Source: an uncultured Bacteroidales bacterium
Lineage (GTDB): Bacteria > Bacteroidota > Bacteroidia > Bacteroidales > Muribaculaceae
Reading direction: 5' to 3'
Assembly: GCA_902782465.1 (NCBI GenBank)
Contig: CACZNH010000006.1
Location: 62,001 to 126,000, forward strand
Length of the DNA stretch: 64,000 nt
Shown: one piece after another, positions 51,481 through 64,000 of the stretch
Layout of the letters: the number at the start of each line of letters is the position of its first letter
Position numbering within the stretch: the first letter of the stretch is position 1
Notes under the pieces: generated by a model
What the model was told of the DNA's origin: nothing
The model's input: only the letters and a program-made list of their open reading frames with translations
Databases searched by the model: none
Program-made: the position numbers and the translations under genes

Positions 51481-51562
51481 TAGAAGTTAGGGGTTAGGAG
51501 TTAGGAGTTAGGAGTTAGGAGTTAGGAGTTAGGAATTAGGAGTTAGGAGTCAGGAGTTGGGA
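51481..51562 (+). repeat. GTTAGGA heptamer array, about ten units
   Basis: Tandem GTTAGGA units with a few variants (GAATTAGGA, GTCAGGA, GTTGGGA) fill the gap between convergent genes and run about 13 bp into the PPTase gene, supplying its stop codon. Confidence 0.85.
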
Positions 51563-52113
51563 GTGCAGACGGTGCAGATGAAACGGGGATAAATGGTGGT
51601 CTGGAAATGGTAGTCGGCGACATTGGCAAGCATTGAACGGATGTCTTCGTCCTTATATTTTCCCGTAAGCTTATAGAGGCTTTCCTTCATGGTCCACAGG
51701 CGGGTAAATTCCACCTCTGGGCACTGCGATGCAGCAATGCGTGCACACTCCTCGTAGCTCATGATTGCGGATGCCACCTCGGGGTCATATCGGTCTAAAC
51801 TCTCCACGTCAATGCCTATCGGTGAGGTACCGACGGCACACGCCACTGCCATGTTGCAATGACTCAGGCTGAAGTGAATTTCGGGATGACCCTCAAGATG
51901 CGGTTTTCCATTGGTTTCACGGATGATTGGCGGTACCTCGTTCATGCCAAACTCAATCGACAACGCCCGCTTTAACAGTAGGAACGCAGCGACACTGAGG
52001 CGCTGGTCACGCTCATGACGGTAACGCAGGGCATAGGCACGACGCTCTGGACTGACGGCAGCCAGAGCTGCCGTCAGGTCAAAATCGTCGATATGGTCAT
52101 CAATGTAAATCAC
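51550..52113 (-). CDS. 4'-phosphopantetheinyl transferase (Sfp-type)
   Basis: A 187-residue Sfp-superfamily protein. SPIGIDVESLDRYD carries the magnesium-binding Asp/Glu and LWTMKESLYKLTG the second WxxKE motif; HFSLSHC is the conserved substrate loop. It moves phosphopantetheine from CoA to a Ser on carrier domains, here most likely the two carrier domains of the NRPS upstream. It overlaps the MATE exporter gene by 4 bp, which puts it firmly in the operon. The last residues (Thr-Pro-Asn-Ser) and the TGA stop come from the heptamer array, so the true ancestral C terminus may have been longer. Confidence 0.92.
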   Translation of the reverse strand: MIYIDDHIDDFDLTAALAAVSPERRAYALRYRHERDQRLSVAAFLLLKRALSIEFGMNEVPPIIRETNGKPHLEGHPEIHFSLSHCNMAVACAVGTSPIGIDVESLDRYDPEVASAIMSYEECARIAASQCPEVEFTRLWTMKESLYKLTGKYKDEDIRSMLANVADYHFQTTIYPRFICTVCTPNS

Positions 52114-53450
52114 TGCTGCTTGAGTTCAAAGCGTACATGGGTGGCCCGGTGCAGCACAAAGATGGCGATGGCCTCGATGAGATAAGCGATGAGATAGCTG
52201 TACCATAGCCAGTCAGGCAGGGTGCGTGCCATGAGCCACAGCACGGGAATTACGGTCAGCGACAAGGCGAAGGAGATAAACAGCGCCATGTGGTGATGAC
52301 CGTAAAGCTTATAGACTATCATCAGCACATAGATATAGCAGAAGGGGATGAAACTCAAAGCAAAAACACGCAAGGCCGGTATGCTCTGAGTCAACATATC
52401 GGGTTCATCACAGCCGAACAGACGAGCGATGCCCTGGGGGTATAGCCACACCAGCAGACATGTGGCAATCATAGCCATAGTGATGAAACGGAAACCCCGC
52501 TTGATGACCATGCGCACACCATAGTTATCCTTCTTGCCCACCTGGATGGCACCAAGCGACTGCAACGTTTGGCAAGTGCCTGACAGGAACAGGTTATATA
52601 CCTGCAACAGATTCATACACAAGGCAAACACAAACATACCCGTGCGTCCTGTGGTCGATAGCACGATTCTGTTGGCACTAAAAAGCAGCAATGTCAAGCA
52701 AATCGACGCCACGGCAAGCGGCGCACCCTGATTGATGATGCGTTGCAGCGAGACGAGCAAGCCGTCACCGGTAAAGACAGGCACAAGGCGACGGTTCTCG
52801 GGTTTGCGCCAATGGGTAAGCAGGATGGCTATTCCCACGAGGTGCCCCACAACCGTCGCTGCCGACGAGCCCGTAATGCCCCAGTCAAACCACTGGATGA
52901 ACACGATATCAAGCAACAGGTTGACAACGTTGTCAACAATGACCGCCAGCGATACCAAACGCGGGCTGCCGTCAACGCCCACCATGGTCGAGAGTCCCCA
53001 CATCAGGATAAATGCAGGATTGCCGATGAGTAGTACTTGGATGTAGTCCTGGGCTAACGGCAGAATCCTCTCGTTGTCGCACATGAGGCGCGCTGTCTGG
53101 TTGGGGAACATCAATCCCCCCACCAGAGCAAGCAGCAAACCAAGCCCCACGCTCAACGACAGTGCTCGTGTGAAGAAGCGGCGTGCATCGTCAATCTTCT
53201 TTTGTCCTATCGCATAGGCTACCAGCATACCCGCACCTGCGTTGATGAGCAGGTGCATGGTGAAGATAAACTGGTTGATGGGCTTCGCCAGGGCAATGGC
53301 GCTCACGCCATCCTCACTGATGAGGTTGCCCACGATAATACCGTCCACCACGTTGCCAAGGCAACCCGAGAGGGCCACCAGGATATAAGCCCACAGGTAG
53401 CGGTAGAATTGAACGGTGATGTCACCGTCTTGCGGTCGCTTGTCCATCAT
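52110..53450 (-). CDS. MATE-family exporter
   Basis: A 446-residue multidrug and toxic compound extrusion transporter with about twelve membrane segments in two related halves; GCLGNVVDGIIVGNLISEDG near the N terminus is typical. MATE proteins export small organic molecules using sodium or protons. Its start overlaps the NRPS stop (TAATG) and its end overlaps the PPTase gene, so the simplest reading is export of the NRPS product or protection against it. A second Met at codon 2 is possible. Confidence 0.9.
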   Translation of the reverse strand: MMDKRPQDGDITVQFYRYLWAYILVALSGCLGNVVDGIIVGNLISEDGVSAIALAKPINQFIFTMHLLINAGAGMLVAYAIGQKKIDDARRFFTRALSLSVGLGLLLALVGGLMFPNQTARLMCDNERILPLAQDYIQVLLIGNPAFILMWGLSTMVGVDGSPRLVSLAVIVDNVVNLLLDIVFIQWFDWGITGSSAATVVGHLVGIAILLTHWRKPENRRLVPVFTGDGLLVSLQRIINQGAPLAVASICLTLLLFSANRIVLSTTGRTGMFVFALCMNLLQVYNLFLSGTCQTLQSLGAIQVGKKDNYGVRMVIKRGFRFITMAMIATCLLVWLYPQGIARLFGCDEPDMLTQSIPALRVFALSFIPFCYIYVLMIVYKLYGHHHMALFISFALSLTVIPVLWLMARTLPDWLWYSYLIAYLIEAIAIFVLHRATHVRFELKQQ

Positions 53451-56400
53451 TATAACATATCAAAGAAGCCCAACGAGCCGATTGCAGACAACATGCGCTC
53501 CACATAGTCCCATGACGTGGGCGACCAGGCGAAATCCAAACGGTAGAGCACCTGGGTGGTGTAGTCATTGTCGCGCTTCACGTCGGCGGTCTTTTGTCCG
53601 TGTGCCATATCCTGATAGGCCAGCAGCGAAGACATCGCCTTGGCCTTGGCGGGGTCGTTCTTGGCCTCGTCCATCTTTTGCTGGAATTCTTCCTGCTCAA
53701 CAAACTTCACGCCATCACCCACAGACAGCAGTCCCATGAGCACATCGCCCAGGAACTGACCATGGATGTTATAGGGGTGGAAGACGGTGCATTCACGCGG
53801 CGTGGAGCTCAGCAGCACGATGGCATGAGCCACCTCGTTGATGGGCGAGAACTCAACCTGCTTGTTGCGCACGCTGTGGGGACAGCAACCCAGCATGTTA
53901 TAGACCTTGATGCGGCCCATGAACGAGTTGGTGGCAAAGTTGGCCTGAAACTCGCCGTCGGTAGAACGGGCAGCCAGGTTGCCCACACGCATAATCTTGG
54001 CATTCAATCCCTTGCGCGCTACAGCATCGAGAATCAGGCGCTCGGCCATAAACTTGGAGTAGATGTACTTGTTGCCCAGGAACTGGCCCATATACAGGCG
54101 CTGCTCGGTGAAGATGTCACCCTTGATTTCACCTGCCCACAGACCGCGCGTGCTGGCGGTCGAGATGTGGACGAGTTTTGCACCGGTCTTGAGGCAGTAG
54201 TCCACGCAACGCTGTGCGCCGCCGATGTTCACATCCTCAATCTCGGTGCCCTCGCTGAAGTGTTTCACGATAGCGGCACAATTGAAAACGGTGTCCACCT
54301 GCAGCCCCTCGCCAAAGTCGCCTGTCACATCGCCAAGGACGATGTGCAGACGCTGGCCAAACAGGTCCTTGAAGGCATCGGAGAAGTAGTAGAACAACAG
54401 GGTGCGCAAGCGACTCTCGGCGGCCTCAAGGCTCTTGCCGCGCACGAGGCAGTAGATGTTCTGTGCATCCGAGTCGATGAGTTCGCGCAGGATGTGTATG
54501 CCCAGGTATCCCGTAGCACCCGTCAGCAGGACGTTGCCCAACTGCTGTCGCTCACCGTTGCGGAAACTGTCGAGCGTATTGTGCTGCAACAGTTCATTGA
54601 TGGCACTGTAGTCAAATGCCGTCACCTCGTCATTGCCCTCGTCGTCGCTCTCGCCCGTGATGAGGCGTGCCAGCTTGCGCGGCGTCGGGTTGGCGAACAC
54701 GTCACCATAAGCAACATGCAAGCCGGCCTTGTCGGCCTCGATGATGACGCGGGTCACGACGAGTGAAGTGCCGCCCAACTCAAAGAAGTTGTCGGTAGCG
54801 CCCACCTTGTCCATCTGCAGGATGTCGGCAAAGATGCTGCAGAAGGTGCGTTCCGTGTCGTTGGCAGGCTCCACATAGGCCGAACTGATGGCCAGTTCGG
54901 GCTCGGGCAGAGCCTTGACATCGGTCTTGCCGTTAGGCGTCATGGGCATCTCCTTCAACTGCAGGTAGGCCGTCGGCACCATGTACTGGGTCAGGCTCTT
55001 GGAAATCTCGGCCTTGAGCGCATCGGGTGCAATCTCGCGGTCGGCAGTATAATAAGCACACAGGTGCTCCTTGTCATTGATTTTGCGGATGAGGATGACG
55101 ACTTTCTTCAGTCCCTCGACCTTGAGGATGACGTTCTCAATCTCGCCCAACTCGATGCGCAGGCCGCGCAACTTGATTTGGTGGTCGGTACGTCCCAGGA
55201 TGACGACATCGCCGTCAGGCAGCCACTTGGCATAGTCACCCGACTTGTAGATGCGCGTCCCGTGGTAATCGACAAAGCGCTCGCGAGTCATCTCGTCCAG
55301 GTTGTTGTAACCGTGTGCCACGCCGCGGCCACCAATGTACAGTTCACCGACAACGCCAACAGGCAGTTCGTTACCATCCTGGTCAACGATGTACTCGATA
55401 ACGTTCAGCTGGGGCTTACCCACCGTCACGACGTCGGCATGAGTCAGTTCCTTGTTATTGGAAGCCACGGTAATCTCGGTGGGGCCATAGCAGTTGAAGA
55501 TGCGCGCCTTGGTCACCTTCCTGAGCTGGTCAAGCAACTGGTCGGAGAATTTCTCACCACCGGCACGCACGATATTGATGCGGCTGATGGCGTCGCAGAA
55601 GTCTTCGCTCGTGAGCCAGGTCATCCAGCGCGACGGGGTGCCCGATACCATATTGATTTGCTCAGTGTTGATGAGTTGGGCCAGGTCAAGCGGGTTGTTG
55701 GCCTGTTCCTCGGTCGCCACGATGAGCGTCTTGCCGTTGAAGTAAGCGGTACCGATGTCCTGCAGGGCGGCGTCAAACGAGATGGTCGTCACACTCAGGA
55801 TGCGACGGGCATCGGTCATCACACCGTTGGCGAACACATTGGCGGGATGCCCGTACAGGTAGTTGCAGATGCCGCGATGGTGGAGCATCACACCCTTGGG
55901 ACGACCCGTCGAGCCGCTGGTGTAAATCAGGTAAGCCAAGTCATCGGGCGTGATATCGGTCACGATGGTGCCATCGTTGTCGTCATTGATGAGGTCTTCC
56001 ACATCGATCGCCTTGCCTGCGGGAACGGTGTCCATACGGTCGGCAGTGGTGATGATATAACGGGCCTCGCTATCCTCGAGAATCAGCTTCACACGGTCGG
56101 CGGGATACTCGGGGTCGCAGGGGATATAGGCAGCGCCTGACTTGAGCACACCGAACAGGGCAAGAATCAAGCGGCTTGTGCGCGGCAGCAGCAGGGCCAC
56201 ACGGTCACGTTCCTGCACACCGCGTTTCCTTAATGCGGCGGCAATGCGGCTGGTGATTTCGTCCATCTGCTTATAGGTGAATCTGCCATCAATGGCGACA
56301 ATCGCCTCGTGGTCGGGCTGCGACTGGGCAAAGTGGCCGATACACTCATGGAACAGGGAGAAGGGCGCGTCGCCCGTTGCCGTCTGGCGCAAGTGGCGCA

Positions 56401-59400
56401 ATTCTGTCTCCTGATTCTCGCTCACGATGGACAGTTGGCGCAATTTGGCCTTCGGCTCAGCCATCATCCTGTTGGCGACAGCAACGATGCTCTCGGCCAT
56501 GCCGCGTCCCACGCGCTCACTGTAAACCGAATCGTCATATTGAACCACGACACCGCGTGACTCGATTTTGATATTGATTTTGAACTTGGGCACATTCAGC
56601 TCCAGCAGTTCCTGACCGATGGACTTGCCGTCAACGGTGTACTGCGAAAGCACACCCACCTGATAAGCATAGGCGATGGCAGGACGGAAGCCATAGTCGG
56701 TAGCGATGCGGGCAAAGGGGTAATCCTCATGCCTGAGCGTCTGGTCAAACGTGTCGCTGGTCTGTTTCAGGAACTCGCTCACGGTCACATCGTCAATGCT
56801 CATGCCCAGGGCGAGCGTGTTGACAAACATGCCCACGGTGTCAGCAATCTTGAGGTTGCTGCGGCCGCTGCTCACGGTACACAGATAAACGTCGCGGTTG
56901 TTGGTGTAGCGCGATACGACGTATGACGTGGCAGCAAGGAACAGATGGGCAGGAGTGATTTCCTGCTGGCGGCAGAAGTCCGTTGCCTTGTCCAGGTCAG
57001 CCGGACAAACAGCCTCGCCAATGAAGCCCTGCTCATCGTTCTTGGGCAGGTCGGCCGGAATCTCGCTGGCCCCCTCGCAGGTCTGCAGTTTCTCGGCAAA
57101 GAACTGCTGAGCCTCCTTGAAGGTGTCGGTTTCCTCGGCAGCCTGCTGGTCGGCAACGAAGTCCAGGTAATTGTAGGATTCCTTCTCTACCGCCTTGCCC
57201 TCGAGTGCCGCATTGAGTTGGCGAATGAGCAAATCGGCCGAGCCACCGTCAAACAACAGGTGGTGAACATCCATCAGCAAATACACGCCGCCAGGGGTCT
57301 TAACGACCTCAAAGCGGTAAAGCGGCGCCTTCTGCAGATTGAAGGGACGCACAAACTCGTTCTTGTATTTCGCCAGTTCATCCTCACTCATCTCGGTGAT
57401 GGGCACCTCGACAGGCACGCTGTCCTCAAGGGTCTGGAGGATGGTGTCGCCCTCGGTCGTGAAGTGGACACTCAACTCAGGATGCGCCTCAACGACGTGC
57501 TTAACGGTGTCGGCAAGGCGATTGGCATCGGTTCCATTGGGATAAGAGAGCAGGTACGGGATGTTATAGATAGTCGATGCGGGATTCTTCAGGCAGTCGA
57601 AATAAACACCCGTCTGGGCATAGGACAGCGGGGCGCTGGTGCGTGTTTCCCGGGTGGGAGATGCAATTTTTTGCGTCTCTACCAATTCTCCGCTAAGCAT
57701 CGATTTCAGGATTTCGTTCTCGATGGTCTGGATGGTGCCTGTCTTGACCAGACTGCGGGAGTCGAGGGCCACGCCATAGCGTTTGTTGACCTGCACAGCC
57801 AACTTGATGGCCGAGATGGAGGTCAAGCCCGCATAACCCAGCAAGGTGGTCACGCCAAAGTCGGTGTTGTTGACAATGTCGGCGACAATCTGGTGCAATT
57901 CCTGCTCCAGCACGTTCATCGGCACGTTGACAGCCTCGGTTGCGGCAGCCTTTTTCTCGGGCTTGGGCAGGGCACGTTTGTTCACCTTCTGGTTCTGGTT
58001 CAGGGGGATGGCATCAATCTGCATCGTCACGGCGGGCACCATATAGGGCGGTTTCTCCTCCATGATGAAGTTGTTCAGCGCCTCGATATCCACTGGGTTG
58101 TCGCTCACGATGTAGGCAGCGATGAACTTGCCGCCGCCTTCCTCGTCAAAGGCTTGTACCGTTGCGTCCTTGATGCCGGGGAACTCGCGGATGATGCCCT
58201 CGACCTCCTTGAGCTCGATGCGGAAACCGCGAATCTTCACCTGACCGTCGCGGCGTCCCACAAACTGGATATCTCCCGAAGGCAGGTAGCGAACGATGTC
58301 GCCCGTGCGATAGATGCGGGCATATTTCTCCTCGTCGGTAAAGGGGTTGGTGATATAGACCTCGGCTGTCTTCTCGGGGCGATTCAGGTAGCCGCGGCTC
58401 ACCTGCGGACCAGCCACCCAGAGTTCACCGGCGGCGCCAACGGGCAAGCGATGGCCCTGCGGGTCAACGATGTACAACCGCATGTTGTCCAGCGGTTTGC
58501 CGATTGGTATTTCCTTCATCTTCTTGTCAACCAGATAGGTAGTGGTGAAGATGGTGCATTCGGTGGGACCATATCCGTTATAGAAACGGAAGCCTTGAGG
58601 CGGAGTGAGCGATGCCAGTTTCTCACCTCCCGTCGAGAGGTGCTGCAGCGAGTGGTTCTCGATGCTGGTAGCGAACTGGTAGCCCACCTGGGTCGTCATA
58701 AACGAGTGGGTGATGCCATTCTGCTCAAAGTATTCGTTCAAGGCGATAAGGTCCAGACGCAGTTCCTCGGGGACGATGTGGAGGGTAGCACCGCAAGTCA
58801 ATGCGGGGTACATATCCATCATGCAGGCATCAAAGCCGTAGCTGGCATAGGCAGCCACCTTGTGCTCGGGTTTGAGGTCATAGTAACGATGGTACCAGTG
58901 GATGAAGGCCACAAGATTGCCGTGAATCAACTGGCAACCCTTGGGCACTCCTGTCGAGCCCGACGTATAGAGCAGGATGAAAAGCTGATCAGGGGTAATG
59001 GTCAACTCGGGAGCCGATGCTGCGGGCAATGACATGATATCCTTGGTAAGCAGCACGTCGCCCTGATATTCGTCAACGATGGGGCGCAGTTCCTCGTCAG
59101 CGATAAGCAACTTGGCACTGGCGTCCTGCATCATGAAGTTGAGGCGCTCCTTGGGGTAACTCGGGTCAAGCGGCTGATAGGCGCAGCCGGCCTTCAACAC
59201 ACCCAGCGAGGCGATGGGCATCCACTCGCAGCGAGGGATGAGAACCGAGACGACATCCTCGGCACCGAGGCCTTTACTGGCCACATAGGCTGCGATGCGG
59301 TTGCTGATTTCATCCACCTGAACATAGGTAAATCGCTTGTCCATATAGACGACCGCAAGCGCATCGGGAGTGCTTTTCACCTGCTGCTGGAACAGCGAGA

Positions 59401-60706
59401 CGATGGTCTGGCTTGCGTCATAATCCAATTCAGCAGGATTGAAGCCGTCGAGGGTCGCGACCTGGCCAGCCGTCGCGATATTGATGTCACGCAGGTATTC
59501 CAGGGTCAGGAAACCCTCCAGCACAGCCTCATAGCTCTCCAAAATCTGTGCAATGAACTCGCGGGAGTATTCGTTGGAATTGTATTCGGCCTTGGCCTGC
59601 ACCTTATCATCTTGGATAAAGACTTTCATGTAGAAAGAGGCATCCAGCGTGCTGTTTCCCAATCTGATGGTCTTCATGGGCTTGTCACCCATCGTTGCGT
59701 TGTCAAACAGTAGGCCGTGCCATGCGAACATCGAGTTGCTCTGCAGATTCAGGTCGGTGGCGATGTCACTATAGCTGTAAATCTCATGCTTGCGGCATCC
59801 GCTCATCTGCTCCTGTCCATTCTGTAACAATTCCAGCACCGTGTTCTCGGGGGTGAATTTGGTATAGACGGGCAACGTCTTTACCGTCATGCCCACCGAA
59901 TGGTCATAGCGCTTGTCAGAGCGGCCATTATAGACCGTGGTGAACAGCGACTCCTGCTCGTTGTTGAATTTTGCCAGCAGAAAGGCATAGGCGGCGGTAA
60001 ACACGGTGCTCTTGAAAACGCCGTTCCGCTTGCAGAATTCATCCACACGGTTCAGGTCCAGCGAGAGGGTACGCAGCAAGTTGTCCTCGCTGTGTTCGGG
60101 CTCTTCCAGGTAGGGCATGAACTGGGTAAAGGTATCGCTGCAATCAAAATTCCGGGCATACCACTGTTTGGCCTCGTCAAATGCGGGAGACTCGCGGCGG
60201 GCAGCCTCGGCGATGGCTATATCCATGAGGGTCAGTTCCTCGGGTGCGATTGCCTCGCCATGATAGGCCTTGTCGATATCCTTGAGCATGATTTGCATCG
60301 AGGTGCCGTCCACAATGATGTGGTGATAGTCGAGGAACAGGTAAAAGTGTTCCCTATCACGCAACACATTGACGTGGAAGAGGCGATCGCCATAGATGTT
60401 GAACGGCCGCACCAGACGCTGTTTTTCCTGCTCAATGTCCTGAATATCCTCAATGGCGAGTGACCACTGTTCATTATCCATGTCGATGGTCTGGACAGGT
60501 TCACCGTCGTCGGCAAGTTCAATGCGGGTAAACAGTGTGGGATGGGCCTTGAATGCCGTCTCGACGGCAGCAAGCAACCTATTGCCGTCAAGGCTATCGT
60601 CGAGCACATAAATGTATGGAAGATTATAATAGGGTTCACCGTTGTGGCTTACACTTTCCACATAAATCCCGTATTGGGATTTTGTTAGGGGTGCTGAACG
60701 TTTCAT
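53450..60706 (-). CDS. two-module NRPS with terminal reductase (C-A-T-C-A-T-R)
   Basis: A 2418-residue nonribosomal peptide synthetase. C1 (about 1-430) has YHHIIVDG with His 128/129 and Asp133. A1 (about 425-930) has LLYTSGSTGVPKG (about 578) and NGYGPTE. T1 has its serine in GLTSIS near 961. C2 has VHHLLFDGG near 1148. A2 (about 1444-1920) has LIYTSGSTGRPKG near 1593 and NCYGPTE. T2 has FFELGGTSL, Ser about 1981. R (about 2055-2418) has the NADPH motif TGATGYLG near 2060 and a YxxxK site in YIYSK near 2216. A starter C domain suggests N-acylation or an upstream donor. The reductase predicts release as a peptide aldehyde. By alignment to GrsA the pocket residues read about DAMFSGGIFK (A1) and DAQSVACVAK (A2), which point only loosely to a hydrophobic and a possibly aromatic residue. 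No epimerase or thioesterase is present. Confidence 0.95.
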   Translation of the reverse strand: MKRSAPLTKSQYGIYVESVSHNGEPYYNLPYIYVLDDSLDGNRLLAAVETAFKAHPTLFTRIELADDGEPVQTIDMDNEQWSLAIEDIQDIEQEKQRLVRPFNIYGDRLFHVNVLRDREHFYLFLDYHHIIVDGTSMQIMLKDIDKAYHGEAIAPEELTLMDIAIAEAARRESPAFDEAKQWYARNFDCSDTFTQFMPYLEEPEHSEDNLLRTLSLDLNRVDEFCKRNGVFKSTVFTAAYAFLLAKFNNEQESLFTTVYNGRSDKRYDHSVGMTVKTLPVYTKFTPENTVLELLQNGQEQMSGCRKHEIYSYSDIATDLNLQSNSMFAWHGLLFDNATMGDKPMKTIRLGNSTLDASFYMKVFIQDDKVQAKAEYNSNEYSREFIAQILESYEAVLEGFLTLEYLRDINIATAGQVATLDGFNPAELDYDASQTIVSLFQQQVKSTPDALAVVYMDKRFTYVQVDEISNRIAAYVASKGLGAEDVVSVLIPRCEWMPIASLGVLKAGCAYQPLDPSYPKERLNFMMQDASAKLLIADEELRPIVDEYQGDVLLTKDIMSLPAASAPELTITPDQLFILLYTSGSTGVPKGCQLIHGNLVAFIHWYHRYYDLKPEHKVAAYASYGFDACMMDMYPALTCGATLHIVPEELRLDLIALNEYFEQNGITHSFMTTQVGYQFATSIENHSLQHLSTGGEKLASLTPPQGFRFYNGYGPTECTIFTTTYLVDKKMKEIPIGKPLDNMRLYIVDPQGHRLPVGAAGELWVAGPQVSRGYLNRPEKTAEVYITNPFTDEEKYARIYRTGDIVRYLPSGDIQFVGRRDGQVKIRGFRIELKEVEGIIREFPGIKDATVQAFDEEGGGKFIAAYIVSDNPVDIEALNNFIMEEKPPYMVPAVTMQIDAIPLNQNQKVNKRALPKPEKKAAATEAVNVPMNVLEQELHQIVADIVNNTDFGVTTLLGYAGLTSISAIKLAVQVNKRYGVALDSRSLVKTGTIQTIENEILKSMLSGELVETQKIASPTRETRTSAPLSYAQTGVYFDCLKNPASTIYNIPYLLSYPNGTDANRLADTVKHVVEAHPELSVHFTTEGDTILQTLEDSVPVEVPITEMSEDELAKYKNEFVRPFNLQKAPLYRFEVVKTPGGVYLLMDVHHLLFDGGSADLLIRQLNAALEGKAVEKESYNYLDFVADQQAAEETDTFKEAQQFFAEKLQTCEGASEIPADLPKNDEQGFIGEAVCPADLDKATDFCRQQEITPAHLFLAATSYVVSRYTNNRDVYLCTVSSGRSNLKIADTVGMFVNTLALGMSIDDVTVSEFLKQTSDTFDQTLRHEDYPFARIATDYGFRPAIAYAYQVGVLSQYTVDGKSIGQELLELNVPKFKINIKIESRGVVVQYDDSVYSERVGRGMAESIVAVANRMMAEPKAKLRQLSIVSENQETELRHLRQTATGDAPFSLFHECIGHFAQSQPDHEAIVAIDGRFTYKQMDEITSRIAAALRKRGVQERDRVALLLPRTSRLILALFGVLKSGAAYIPCDPEYPADRVKLILEDSEARYIITTADRMDTVPAGKAIDVEDLINDDNDGTIVTDITPDDLAYLIYTSGSTGRPKGVMLHHRGICNYLYGHPANVFANGVMTDARRILSVTTISFDAALQDIGTAYFNGKTLIVATEEQANNPLDLAQLINTEQINMVSGTPSRWMTWLTSEDFCDAISRINIVRAGGEKFSDQLLDQLRKVTKARIFNCYGPTEITVASNNKELTHADVVTVGKPQLNVIEYIVDQDGNELPVGVVGELYIGGRGVAHGYNNLDEMTRERFVDYHGTRIYKSGDYAKWLPDGDVVILGRTDHQIKLRGLRIELGEIENVILKVEGLKKVVILIRKINDKEHLCAYYTADREIAPDALKAEISKSLTQYMVPTAYLQLKEMPMTPNGKTDVKALPEPELAISSAYVEPANDTERTFCSIFADILQMDKVGATDNFFELGGTSLVVTRVIIEADKAGLHVAYGDVFANPTPRKLARLITGESDDEGNDEVTAFDYSAINELLQHNTLDSFRNGERQQLGNVLLTGATGYLGIHILRELIDSDAQNIYCLVRGKSLEAAESRLRTLLFYYFSDAFKDLFGQRLHIVLGDVTGDFGEGLQVDTVFNCAAIVKHFSEGTEIEDVNIGGAQRCVDYCLKTGAKLVHISTASTRGLWAGEIKGDIFTEQRLYMGQFLGNKYIYSKFMAERLILDAVARKGLNAKIMRVGNLAARSTDGEFQANFATNSFMGRIKVYNMLGCCPHSVRNKQVEFSPINEVAHAIVLLSSTPRECTVFHPYNIHGQFLGDVLMGLLSVGDGVKFVEQEEFQQKMDEAKNDPAKAKAMSSLLAYQDMAHGQKTADVKRDNDYTTQVLYRLDFAWSPTSWDYVERMLSAIGSLGFFDML
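57652..57684. repeat. degenerate GAGACGCAA palindrome inside the NRPS linker
   Basis: GAGATGCAATTTTTTGCGTCTC (two near-complementary 9-mers) with GGT/ACC flanks. It encodes the linker between T1 and C2 (about residues 1008-1018, VETQKIASPT). It resembles the terminator palindrome at 41474-41501. Confidence 0.6.
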
Positions 60707-60730
60707 ATCATTGCTTTGGGCTAAATTGCT

Positions 60731-62080
60731 TTACCATTTTGTTGAAAAGATGCGAGGATTCACGCTCACCGAGAGCCAACCCCAACGCATCTGGTTGTTA
60801 TTACTTGTACGCTTGAGCAGTTCCATGGTTTCGCTGCCTTTCATCCATGAGAAACCAGCCGAAACATCCACGTCGCGGCTTAAGGCATAATGGGCATCCA
60901 ATTCCACCTCATGACCCAAAGGCGTGCCCATGCCTTCGAGCTTGGTGGCAGTTGCCAGATAATGATAGCTGGCGTTGAGCGTAAGCTTATCTATAGGCTT
61001 ATAAGTAGCTCCGACGTAAGCATTCTGTAAACCAGGCGTGAAGCCGTTCAGGTAGGCACTCACGTAGAAGAAATCCATAGCGCCGTAGAACTTGTGATGG
61101 GAGCCATAGACGGTACTGAAGCCCTTGATGACCTCATGCCGCATCATGCCGATGCCATCTTTAGGGGGAACGGCAAATTTCTTGTCACCGCTCAGATAGT
61201 CATAACCAACAGTGAAGGCATAATTACTGGCGGGCCTGAAACTGGCCTTGGCACTCGCCATCCAAGCGTCGATCTTCATGCCCAACTCACTCTTGCCGAA
61301 CTGGTGGTAATAGGAGAATTCGGTCTTCCATCGACGTGGCGAGAACGACACATAACCACCCAGCAGATGCTGGAACCACGTGTGTAGCGGCTCATCGGGG
61401 TCACTCTGCATACCGATGTTCATAAAAAGCAAGGAAGCACCCAGCGGGATGTTGCTGAAGTCGTAATGGTACCACAGGTCCTGCATCGTCTTGTAGGGCT
61501 GTCCCCCGTCCTGATAATAGGTATCTCCTGTCCAGACCACATCGGAATTCTGATTATAAGCCAGAATCACGTGCGCCTTGTGGCCGTGGCCTTCATAGCC
61601 CACTCGCAGCACATCGTGCGACGATGAGGCCATTGCCCAATCATCCGAGCCGATGATGCGCTCGTCATCATAGGAAAGCGCTACCCTGCCGACTTGAGCA
61701 AACAGGCCGAAAGGAGCTGTCAGTTTGGCCCACGTTTCATACAGGTTGAAGGCACCCTTTCCCGACTGTCCCCACACGCCCGTGTGCTGTGGAGTGACAC
61801 GGGCAGCGAGCCAATCTCTCTTGTAATTGATGGCCAAGCGGGAGCGACCTTGGATGAAGCTGTATTTGGCCTCATTCTCTTCTTCCTCGCCTGCAAAAGG
61901 CTGCACTTGTTTCAGACCTCCGTAGCGTGACTCGCCACGAGCCAGAAACTGAAAATCTACCGTCAGCTCATTCTCTTTAGAAGGGATGCTGTCGGTGGCA
62001 GCAGGCTGGGCAGCAAGTATCGGCTGCGACAACATAAAGGCTACGAATATCCACAGCCTGATGTCTTTAAGAAAACCCAT
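60731..62080 (-). CDS. outer membrane beta-barrel protein, alginate-export-like
   Basis: A 449-residue exported barrel. The ATG at 62080 begins the signal peptide (MGFLKDIRLWIFVAFMLSQP, then cleavage near LAAQP); the longer frame starts at a TTG and is rejected. The mature part alternates aromatic-rich strands (FAQVGRVALSYDDERIIGSD, FKTEFSYYHQFGK-like stretches) and ends in the aromatic PRIFSTKW. It resembles the alginate-export/carbohydrate-porin barrel family. It lies 24 bp upstream of the NRPS and 16 bp downstream of the STAS gene, so it is part of the operon and may let the product or a substrate cross the outer membrane. Confidence 0.78.
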   Translation of the reverse strand: MGFLKDIRLWIFVAFMLSQPILAAQPAATDSIPSKENELTVDFQFLARGESRYGGLKQVQPFAGEEEENEAKYSFIQGRSRLAINYKRDWLAARVTPQHTGVWGQSGKGAFNLYETWAKLTAPFGLFAQVGRVALSYDDERIIGSDDWAMASSSHDVLRVGYEGHGHKAHVILAYNQNSDVVWTGDTYYQDGGQPYKTMQDLWYHYDFSNIPLGASLLFMNIGMQSDPDEPLHTWFQHLLGGYVSFSPRRWKTEFSYYHQFGKSELGMKIDAWMASAKASFRPASNYAFTVGYDYLSGDKKFAVPPKDGIGMMRHEVIKGFSTVYGSHHKFYGAMDFFYVSAYLNGFTPGLQNAYVGATYKPIDKLTLNASYHYLATATKLEGMGTPLGHEVELDAHYALSRDVDVSAGFSWMKGSETMELLKRTSNNNQMRWGWLSVSVNPRIFSTKW

Positions 62081-62096
62081 GCGCGTGTTGCTCAAA

Positions 62097-62399
62097 TCAC
62101 TCTACTTCGAACAGATTGATTAACCCAGTCATCTTAAAGACGTTCTTGATATCGTCATTCATGTTGCGCAGGGTCACCTTGTTACCGCCAGCCTTGGCGC
62201 TCTTGAGGATGCCCAACAGGATACGCAAGCCACTGGATGCGATATACTCCAGCCCTTTGCACTCAATGATGATGTCACGGCCATTGCTGTTATACAGGGG
62301 CTGCATTTCCTTTTCCACCTGCAATGCTGCAGCGGTATCCAGTTCACCTTCGAGGGTGGCAACAATCTTGCCTTCCAGTTCTTCAATACTTGTTTTCAT
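62097..62399 (-). CDS. STAS-domain anti-sigma factor antagonist-like protein
   Basis: A 100-residue single STAS domain. EYIASSGLRILLGIL holds the Ser (about 56) that is phosphorylated in SpoIIAA/RsbV-type proteins. In partner-switching systems it binds the kinase when dephosphorylated, releasing a sigma factor or other target. It lies 11 bp after the SpoIIE/HATPase gene, which should dephosphorylate and phosphorylate it. Confidence 0.92.
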   Translation of the reverse strand: MKTSIEELEGKIVATLEGELDTAAALQVEKEMQPLYNSNGRDIIIECKGLEYIASSGLRILLGILKSAKAGGNKVTLRNMNDDIKNVFKMTGLINLFEVE

Positions 62400-62410
62400 T
62401 TATTTTCCAG

Positions 62411-64000
62411 TCATTTATGATTTATACTCTTTTTTAATGTCAATATATTCTTGCCATCAATGCGTTCGTAATTGATGGAATCCATCAATTCCCTTACAAG
62501 AAAGATGCCAAGTCCGCCGATAGGCCTTTCCTCGGCCGGCAAGGTGGTGTCCACCCTACCCCCCTCGGTCGGGTCAAAGGGCTTACCCATGTCGGTGATG
62601 ACGAATTTCAAGAAAGTCCCGTCGGTAGCGGCATCGACAGTAATTTCTCCTTGTGTCCCAACAGGATAAGCATAATCAATCACGTTAACCACGGCTTCCT
62701 CTACAGCCAGCTTGATTTGGCCGCCAAGAGTCGTATCAACCTTCATGCGGCTCAAGAACGACATCACAAAATTGTTGAGAACAGGTACCTGGCTCAAGTC
62801 GTTCTTCAACGTAATGGACTCTTGAGACACAAGGGTCTCCCCCTTGGGGGTGTAACGTATCGCGAGCAGCGTCAGGTCATCGCTCTGCTCGGCACCGTCA
62901 ACAAAGACATCCACATCATCGCGCACCGTTGCCAGCATCTGCTCCAACGAGTAGTCTTCCTTCTCGCAATAGATTTGCAAGGCATCGTTGGCACGCTGCA
63001 GTCTGTACTGTTCATGATTCTCGTCCATGGCCTCGGTCAATCCGTCGGTATAGAGGAACAGTGACGTGTTGGGTTCAAGGATGGTTTCCTGACCTTCATA
63101 CATAAAGTCATCAATAATGCCGAGCGGGAGGTTGGGCTCGACAGGAAGCATCGAAATCTGCTTACCGATAATCATGGGGGCATCATGACCCGCATTGCAG
63201 TAACGCAGGCGACCTGTGGGCAAGTCCAGCACACCGATGAAGAAGGTGACAAACATGTTGCGGTCGTTGTTGCGGGATGCCGTCTCGTTGAGGGTGCGCA
63301 TGATGAGTGCAGGATTGCTCTCGTGGCTTGACGTGGAGAAGAACAGCGCATGGGCAATCGACATCACCAATGCCGAAGGAACGCCCTTGCCGCTCACGTC
63401 GCCGATGCAGAAGAACAGTTTCTCGTCACGGATGAAGAAGTCGTACAGGTCACCACCCACCTCCCTGGCAGGCATCAGCAAACCATGCACGTCGATATCG
63501 GTGCGTTCGGGGAAAGCCGGATATTTCACTGGCAGCATCGACATCTGCAGCTCGCGGGCGATGCGCAACTCGCCACCGATGCGTTCCTGCTCGACAGCCG
63601 CGGCTCTCAAGCGTCGTTCGCTGCGTGCAAACCTGAGTATAATGAGCCCCAGCAATCCCATCGCTACCAGCATCGACAGCATGAGAAGGTTGCGCAAACG
63701 CTTGAGGGAACCATAGGCTTCCTTCTCATAGCACACTGCGGCCAGTTGCCAGTGGGGCTTGCCCCTCATGTTGGCGTAGAAGATGTAGCCCTTTTCTCCA
63801 TCATGAACAGACCGGAAATCGACGATGGTGGAACGGCCGCTGTGACTCTTGCGCCTAGCCACCGTACTGTCATTAATCAATTGATGGACCAGTTCAACAT
63901 CAGTGGCATTGACATGAGAGGCCCTGGGTTTGCAGACCAGTTTCCCACCTTCGGTCAGCAGCAGGTCAAACGACGAGGGATAGGCATGGCGGGCATTGAG
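62411..64000 (-). CDS. membrane sensor with SpoIIE phosphatase and RsbW-like ATPase domains (partial)
   Basis: At least 529 residues; the frame stays open to the window edge, so the N terminus is missing (a TTG at 63880 is not a real start). The visible N-terminal part looks like a Cache-type extracytoplasmic sensor (SFDLLLTEGGKLVCKPRA, GEKGYIFYANMRGKPHWQLA), followed by a membrane helix (LLMLSMLVAMGLLGLIILRF), the PP2C/SpoIIE phosphatase (REVGGDLYDFF, GDVSGKGVPSALVMS, CNAGHDAP, YTDGLTEAMD, SDDLTLL) and a GHKL ATPase (EEAVVNVIDYAYP, DMGKPFDPTE, GGLGIFLV). This joins RsbU- and RsbW-like functions in one protein. It probably senses an external signal and controls the STAS protein that follows. 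It is the first visible gene of the NRPS operon. Confidence 0.92.
   Translation of the reverse strand, partial: LNARHAYPSSFDLLLTEGGKLVCKPRASHVNATDVELVHQLINDSTVARRKSHSGRSTIVDFRSVHDGEKGYIFYANMRGKPHWQLAAVCYEKEAYGSLKRLRNLLMLSMLVAMGLLGLIILRFARSERRLRAAAVEQERIGGELRIARELQMSMLPVKYPAFPERTDIDVHGLLMPAREVGGDLYDFFIRDEKLFFCIGDVSGKGVPSALVMSIAHALFFSTSSHESNPALIMRTLNETASRNNDRNMFVTFFIGVLDLPTGRLRYCNAGHDAPMIIGKQISMLPVEPNLPLGIIDDFMYEGQETILEPNTSLFLYTDGLTEAMDENHEQYRLQRANDALQIYCEKEDYSLEQMLATVRDDVDVFVDGAEQSDDLTLLAIRYTPKGETLVSQESITLKNDLSQVPVLNNFVMSFLSRMKVDTTLGGQIKLAVEEAVVNVIDYAYPVGTQGEITVDAATDGTFLKFVITDMGKPFDPTEGGRVDTTLPAEERPIGGLGIFLVRELMDSINYERIDGKNILTLKKSINHK

Follow-up and report, generated by a model that had tools for sequence, protein, structure and literature searches.

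The window analysed here, a stretch of 64,000 nucleotides from an uncultured Bacteroidales bacterium of the gut, probably that of a ruminant (G000:C6:62001–126000; the draft genome has 3.13 Mb in 45 contigs and is ~95% complete; G and L labels denote the genomes and loci compared), carries an operon of six genes of one direction on the minus strand (51550–64000), the first gene extending beyond the window end. From first to last, the genes encode a sensor phosphatase-kinase, a STAS protein, an outer-membrane barrel, a nonribosomal peptide synthetase (NRPS) ending in a reductase, a MATE exporter, and a phosphopantetheinyl transferase (PPTase); by sequence, all of them are intact. We consider it probable (at about 0.6, judging from sequence comparison) that the product of the operon is an exported, N-capped dipeptide aldehyde, its synthesis, activation, and export being controlled by a phosphate-operated partner switch. 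It is not a chance assembly, as it recurs in dozens of loci; the operon family is real, widespread, and well conserved, its chemistry is of a known kind with a cap, and the coupling to a partner switch is the new part.

In the proposed mechanism, the PPTase would load the carrier domains T1 and T2; the condensation domain C1 would attach a starter (acyl, aryl, or aminoacyl) to the residue selected by the hydrophobic pocket of the adenylation domain A1; C2 would add the amino acid of A2, whose strongly conserved, arginine-containing pocket is unusual; and the reductase domain R would release the aldehyde with NAD(P)H. The product would leave the cytoplasm through the MATE exporter; its passage over the outer membrane, or that of a related compound, may be the task of the barrel. 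The signal would be received by the periplasmic sensor domain; the serine of STAS would be dephosphorylated by the phosphatase and rephosphorylated by the kinase domain, which belongs to the same chain. Because there is no sigma factor in the operon, the target of dephosphorylated STAS would most likely be something other than a dedicated sigma factor.

Synthetase, partner switch, and operon layout

The NRPS gene (53450–60706; 2418 aa) has by Pfam two Condensation, two AMP-binding, two PP-binding, and one NAD_binding_4 domain, in the order C-A-T-C-A-T-R that had been proposed in an earlier note on this DNA. The N-terminal condensation domain C1 occupies 59432–60706 (Pfam), and the terminal thioester reductase domain 53453–54535 (approximately residues 2058–2418; NAD_binding_4, E 3.2e-34). 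The comparison set was reduced from 143 matching frames to 116 full-length and 83 non-identical sequences, the window's included. Here, the T2 serine and the reductase motifs TGxxGxLG and YxxxK (in the window, TGATGYLG and YIYSK) are present in 83/83 sequences; the T1 serine and the HHxxxDG motif of C2 are each seen in 79/83, the remaining four being gapped at the site; and C1 has HHxxxDG in 81/83 and HHxxxDY in two. The terminal domain carries both TGxxGxxG and Tyr-x3-Lys, the signature of reductase-terminated NRPSs.

At the pocket positions, which we assume to correspond to those of GrsA, A1 shows DAMFSG with small hydrophobic variants in most of the 83 rows, and A2 shows DAQSRGCVAK in 68 (four more are gapped). 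A prediction of the A2 substrate was tried and dropped: this code matches none known to us, and the arginine in it is no more than a hint of a polar or acidic side chain. The median identity to the window NRPS is 63% for C1, the least conserved domain, versus 78–94% for the other domains, suggesting that the core chemistry is conserved and the cap step is more variable. The T2-R end (window 53453–54892) matches PDB 6vtj/6vtz with 319 bits; we take these entries to be a carrier-reductase pair from a rumen methanogen, and gene exchange within the rumen is possible.

The sensor, phosphatase, and kinase gene lies at 62411–64000 and runs on to ~64630. Taken whole from the contig, it encodes 752 aa if translation begins at a TTG and 739 aa if it begins at the ATG at window-equivalent 64630, and combines in one chain a PDC/Cache-type sensor (MCP-like_PDC_1 above and dCache_1 below the cut-off), a SpoIIE phosphatase (E 1.7e-45), and an HATPase_c_2 kinase (E 1.8e-25) that is RsbW-like by NCBIfam, below the curated cut-off. 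The catalytic residues (the GGD aspartate, GDxxGKG, TDG, DD, the N-box Asn, and the G boxes) are conserved in 60 rows, window included. Within the chain, the sensor varies most, with a median identity of 41% versus 55% and 60%. Of what we take to be the amino-acid-binding motif of Cache sensors, PYxD and the later D are conserved, and an arginine stands near the expected place in 40/60 rows, the window protein having tyrosine.

The stand-alone STAS protein, of the RsbV/SpoIIAA type (62097–62399; 100 aa; Pfam STAS, E 9.8e-15), passes the TIGR00377 cut-off; in its SSG phosphosite the first Ser is found in 88/88 rows and the second in 87/88, window included. A PP2C phosphatase, an HATPase kinase, and a STAS protein with a phosphorylatable Ser, the components of RsbUVW-type switches, are hence all predicted. 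The SpoIIE and HATPase_c_2 matches of the operon are the only ones in the genome; its STAS match is one of two, the other lying in a 573-residue frame elsewhere, which is probably a SulP-type transporter.

The remaining genes encode the barrel (60731–62080, or from a possible TTG at 62095), the MATE exporter (52110–53450; 446 aa; Pfam MatE), and an Sfp-type PPTase (51550–52113; 187 aa; ACPS-type by Pfam). The six identities given in the earlier note all agree with Pfam, that of the barrel weakly, and its 24, 16, and 11 bp gaps and two overlaps are reproduced by frames and coordinates: 11 bp (62400–62410) separate the phosphatase-kinase and STAS genes; 16 bp separate the STAS and barrel genes with the barrel ATG at 62080, or 1 bp with the TTG at 62095; 24 bp (60707–60730) separate the barrel and NRPS genes; the NRPS and MATE genes overlap by one base, at 53450, and the MATE and PPTase genes by four (52110–52113). 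Upstream of the operon lies a divergent Na+/H+ antiporter gene; downstream, a 173-codon frame on the opposite strand, then gyrA.

Regions of up to 150 bp upstream of genes were searched for TAnnTTTG, presumably the Bacteroidetes −7 box, with expectations from single-base shuffles. The motif precedes the switch gene, i.e., that of the phosphatase-kinase, in 35/59 loci versus 3.9 expected; the counts are 9/87 (2.8 expected) before STAS, 5/66 (2.9) before the barrel, 5/81 (2.9) before the NRPS, 5/64 (2.8) before MATE, and 5/20 (0.6) before the PPTase. This enrichment, mainly before the switch gene, fits a single main promoter ahead of the whole operon, perhaps with another before the PPTase or STAS gene in some loci. 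A −33 element accompanies the motif in only 3/59; the window operon has two copies of TAnnTTTG, starting 29 and 44 bases before the ATG. With an R-terminated NRPS of conserved motifs, its own PPTase, a MATE gene, and a promoter-like motif mainly before the first gene, the make-activate-export unit that had been proposed is the natural reading.

Linkage in relatives and its exceptions

We collected 87 distinct NRPS loci, window included (distinct meaning not identical over a 1200-base stretch, so that close relatives are counted separately); upstream counts refer to the 74 loci with at least 4.5 kb upstream, downstream counts to 77, and counts of all six genes to 68. The phosphatase-kinase and STAS genes are found within 6.5 kb upstream on the same strand in 66/74, the barrel gene in 59/74, and all three in 58/74. 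Downstream, MATE is seen in 64/77 and the PPTase in 34/77; all six genes stand together in 32/68. Since the operon is widespread, the idea that it is a unique novelty of the window's genome was rejected.

Among 297 genomes drawn from the family (40 same-genus and 257 other, by our own tally from the matches listed), the NRPS has matches (E 1e-150) in 36/40 same-genus genomes, 33 with the family enzyme and three in which just a shorter NRPS matches, at 48%, and in 8/257 others. The switch protein has matches (E 1e-80) in 37/40, some of them partial, and in 8/257. Outside the genus, the switch match is whole-length in five genomes, and all five are NRPS-positive (Fisher p 6e-9, the criterion having been set after seeing the matches, kinship ignored); with all eight switch matches, five of which overlap with the NRPS, p is 3e-7, kinship again ignored. 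The phosphatase-kinase and STAS genes accompany the NRPS in seven of the eight NRPS-positive genomes of other genera, with the gene order shuffled: the switch is upstream in G061 and downstream in G085, G108, and G249; in G160, the STAS gene stands before the NRPS, and a phosphatase gene truncated at the stretch end comes after the PPTase; in G253 and G275, the switch is upstream, with only 31–42% identity. In G210, the switch genes are 52 kb from the NRPS.

A draw of 295 genomes of the order yields six matches, the window's included; linkage is seen in G582 and G571, and no switch gene was found in the NRPS stretch of G370 (G412 and G038 fall outside this comparison). In G571, a P-II-type nitrogen regulatory protein is encoded directly before a distant NRPS-STAS-phosphatase-PPTase set (L192:5828–6121). 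At the phylum level (395 genomes), the 11 other matches are 28–32% identical, and none extends past query residue 2063, therefore none covers the reductase.

Several observations weigh against a close tie between switch and NRPS. In five of the 74 loci, all three upstream genes are absent from the upstream side, although one of the five, L060, has them inverted downstream. Among 37 same-genus genomes, 27 have the family NRPS, three (G004, G021, G030) only distant NRPSs, and seven none; five of these seven (G001, G007, G010, G013, and G018) keep the switch protein, with the barrel adjoining in all five and STAS in four. The NRPS could be missing from the assembly, completeness being 66% for G013 and 89% for G001; in G018, a contig end holds a distant reductase piece. 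The remaining two of the seven, G019 (74% complete) and G022 (62%), show no match. Related phosphatase-kinase/STAS pairs also stand beside unrelated genes in other Bacteroidales families (six stretches from five genomes, with only some neighbours scanned in three and none in one); in two of these, G535 (L194:7058–12070) and G561 (L197:5872–10252), a RelA/SpoT-domain protein and an APH-type phosphotransferase accompany the pair, a set in which the switch might control an alarmone enzyme. At least in the NRPS-less genomes, the switch and barrel seem to have a job apart from the NRPS.

The switch and barrel might accordingly form an independent envelope signalling module, with the NRPS-MATE cassette simply co-transcribed. 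Besides the five genomes that keep the two side by side and the pairs in other families, this would suit G013 and G018, where the PPTase gene directly follows the barrel gene, as if NRPS and MATE had dropped out, and a quick switch tree of 60 rows, in which the three of the five NRPS-less genomes that passed the coverage and ATG filter fall in three separate places (three changes, with weak support at two), as repeated loss would give. However, STAS abuts the NRPS, within 150 bp and with no barrel between, in 13 of the 87 distinct loci, and other genera retain the linkage in varied gene orders, with the switch on either side of the NRPS. We regard an independent module as rather unlikely, and prefer a switch that controls the NRPS operon.

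The barrel itself shows only a weak Pfam match (Alginate_exp, E 3.6e-8; the best stretch covers residues 254–380 only), and a profile of the barrel family (52-row alignment) gave no match to PDB sequences at E 0.01. Barrel and switch in one operon had been put forward as a possible new combination. This needs shifting: the switch with the NRPS is the widespread linkage, whereas the barrel, present in 59/74 loci, also accompanies the switch in the five genomes in which no NRPS was found. The barrel was rejected as a core part of the NRPS system, since it persists beside the switch in NRPS-less genomes and is seen in only one of the eight other-genus genomes, G108, ~3 kb upstream of the NRPS. 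In G160 (L185:13044–15023), a different barrel, OMP_b-brl_3 of 659 aa, lies between the NRPS and MATE genes; outer-membrane barrels may therefore have joined such operons more than once.

Predicted product

The earlier note expected a peptide aldehyde or a pyrazinone, by analogy with AusA. The reductase-terminated, aldehyde part agrees with the conserved R motifs, while the pyrazinone part does not agree with the extra condensation domain. AusA is described, in the available part of the source, as A1-T1-C-A2-T2-R, starting with A (PMC12153313); its dipeptide aldehyde has a free amine and closes to an imine. The operon NRPS has in addition C1, which with its intact HHxxxDG should cap the amine. 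A genome-wide PF00668 search gave two condensation-domain matches, both in the operon NRPS (draft ~95% complete), hence no upstream NRPS that might feed C1. The extra C1 in the sole condensation-domain NRPS of the genome makes an N-capped dipeptide aldehyde the likely product; its capped amine would leave no pyrazinone closure through the product's own amine. Pyrazinone as the main product was rejected on the extra N-terminal domain.

Were C1 inactive or idle, a free-amine dipeptide aldehyde would close to a dihydropyrazinone and oxidise to a pyrazinone, as in the AusA type. AusA and AusB are the top NCBIfam models for the NRPS and the PPTase, but both scores are far under the cut-offs and do not reach them (1156.9 of 2500 bits and 62 of 225 bits, respectively). 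The A1 pocket is hydrophobic, presumably like a Val/Leu-type site, and two of the 83 relatives have the altered C1 motif HHxxxDY; on the other hand, HHxxxDG is kept in 81/83, some relatives have loading modules or ligases for C1, and AusA, as far as the source was available, has no N-terminal C domain (PMC12153313). An idle C1 is in our view quite improbable, and the N-capped aldehyde is preferred.

Some relatives encode genes or modules that would feed C1. An AMP ligase gene, resembling PaaK/F390 synthetase, directly follows the NRPS in 9/127 loci scanned (L035, L153, L060, L142, L079, L057, L114, L086, and L094), and a ligase of this kind is also seen in two genomes of other genera, G061 and G249; the family's matches fall below the curated cut-offs of named CoA-ligase models. 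An A-T module is fused before C1 in 3/3 scanned NRPSs of ~3000 aa (L180, L189, L186). Because the fused A domain passes the amino-acid adenylation model in L189 (393 bits, cut-off 317) and not in L180 (212 bits), the cap type is left broad, and could be an acyl, aryl, or aminoacyl group. Some gut clusters of the Fischbach group's family reportedly also have a starter C domain. With conserved core pockets and reductase, and a more variable C1 and sensor, a single conserved dipeptide aldehyde would be expected, its caps and signals differing between species.

Two points count against the cap. C1 is not clearly of the starter type, its best PDB match being the TycC condensation domain (86 bits), followed by others including PvdL. 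Furthermore, the window's own genome has no match to the L035-type ligase, an empty result that is weak by itself; the starter would then come from another enzyme or from cell pools, and other AMP-binding frames exist in this genome. A third point concerns the aldehyde: the R domain may reduce on, in a second round, so that an N-capped dipeptide alcohol is made. The reductase of myxochelin synthetase makes an alcohol, and the model of this enzyme also matches via the R domain (679.4 bits, cut-off 2300); from the motifs compared, aldehyde and alcohol cannot be told apart. Yet gut reductase-terminated NRPSs with known products are described as releasing aldehydes, in the part of the source at hand (PMC12327764), and we give the alcohol little weight beside the N-capped aldehyde.

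Shorter reductase-terminated NRPSs also occur in the genus (~1450 aa; a single module, C-A-T-R by Pfam in L138); no switch genes were found near NRPSs of this type in four stretches (L138, L139, L171, and L172). In L047, the shorter NRPS stands directly behind a family NRPS that has switch genes. Two neighbouring reductase-family NRPS genes are seen in L047 and L096 (adjacent in both) and in L103 (with a MATE gene between).

Proposed control of the operon and comparison with known systems

The switch could also have a classical output and govern operon transcription, its kinase domain holding back a sigma factor or another transcription regulator whose gene lies elsewhere. The RsbW-like HATPase (below the curated cut-off) would suit such a role, and sigma factors are the targets of partner switches in other bacteria, that of Chlamydia being the housekeeping factor, according to the available part of the source (PMC8256260). 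Against it, no sigma factor is encoded among the six operon genes, the antiporter gene, or gyrA, with the genome as a whole not searched for sigma factors and most of the relatives' unlabelled neighbours unchecked. Kinase and phosphatase are moreover in one chain, unlike the separate RsbU and RsbW, and we know of no SigB-type factor in Bacteroidota. A classical output is possible, though not probable; we prefer a STAS target other than a dedicated sigma factor.

Of such targets, the NRPS itself, or its exporter, is a tentative, rather doubtful candidate. Here, STAS, its phosphorylation set by a signal from the periplasm, would be a direct, reversible, post-translational gate, binding the NRPS (or MATE) when dephosphorylated and toggling aldehyde production with no sigma factor. 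If true, a portable phosphatase-kinase/STAS cassette would gate other Bacteroidales enzymes, e.g., the RelA/SpoT-domain proteins in two families.

A full-text literature search, judged by title and abstract opening, found among the papers listed no description of an NRPS operon with a partner switch, and the conserved switch beside the NRPS suggests an unfamiliar way of controlling such chemistry. The company of the switch in several gene orders raises the question of when anaerobes produce a reactive aldehyde and how they time this, and of the role that partner switches have in a phylum with, to our knowledge, no SigB-type factor. Many homologue records carry rumen or ruminant-gut titles, hence clusters of this type were probably counted in rumen surveys without being described. 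One such survey, as far as its available part reports, lists 5,346 NRPS clusters among 8,160 genomes, 934 of them in Bacteroidaceae, and names Prevotella NRPS clusters among those with feed-efficiency-linked expression differences (PMC8241843). Peptide aldehydes can inhibit proteases, and a conserved product could act on microbial, protozoal, or host proteases; the ruminant-gut setting matters for livestock protein use.

Compared with known systems, the barrel resembles AlgE-type alginate barrels (PF13372) by a weak profile match over part of the protein; unlike in AlgE systems, there is no alginate gene among the operon genes. AusA/AusB of S. aureus, which make aureusimines, share with the operon the two modules, the terminal reductase, the dedicated PPTase, and, likely, a hydrophobic first residue. 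They differ in the A-T-C-A-T-R order with no starter C and, in the available part of the source, in ausAB being a two-gene cluster (PMC12153313). Peptide aldehydes from gut bacterial NRPSs are known, from the Fischbach group's family of 47 and ruminopeptin of Ruminococcus bromii, and in this the operon is similar, although in the available parts of these sources neither a Bacteroidales rumen member nor a partner switch is named (PMC12327764, PMC12282076).

As to the switch, RsbU/RsbV/RsbW, SypE/SypA, and SiaA/B/C/D likewise combine a PP2C phosphatase, an HATPase kinase, and a STAS protein with a conserved serine. In SypE/SypA, as the available part of the source has it, SypA acts on an unknown target (PMC8256260). 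The operon differs from all three in that phosphatase and kinase are fused in one sensor protein. Its gene partner differs as well, being an NRPS rather than a sigma factor or, as in the Sia system, a cyclase.

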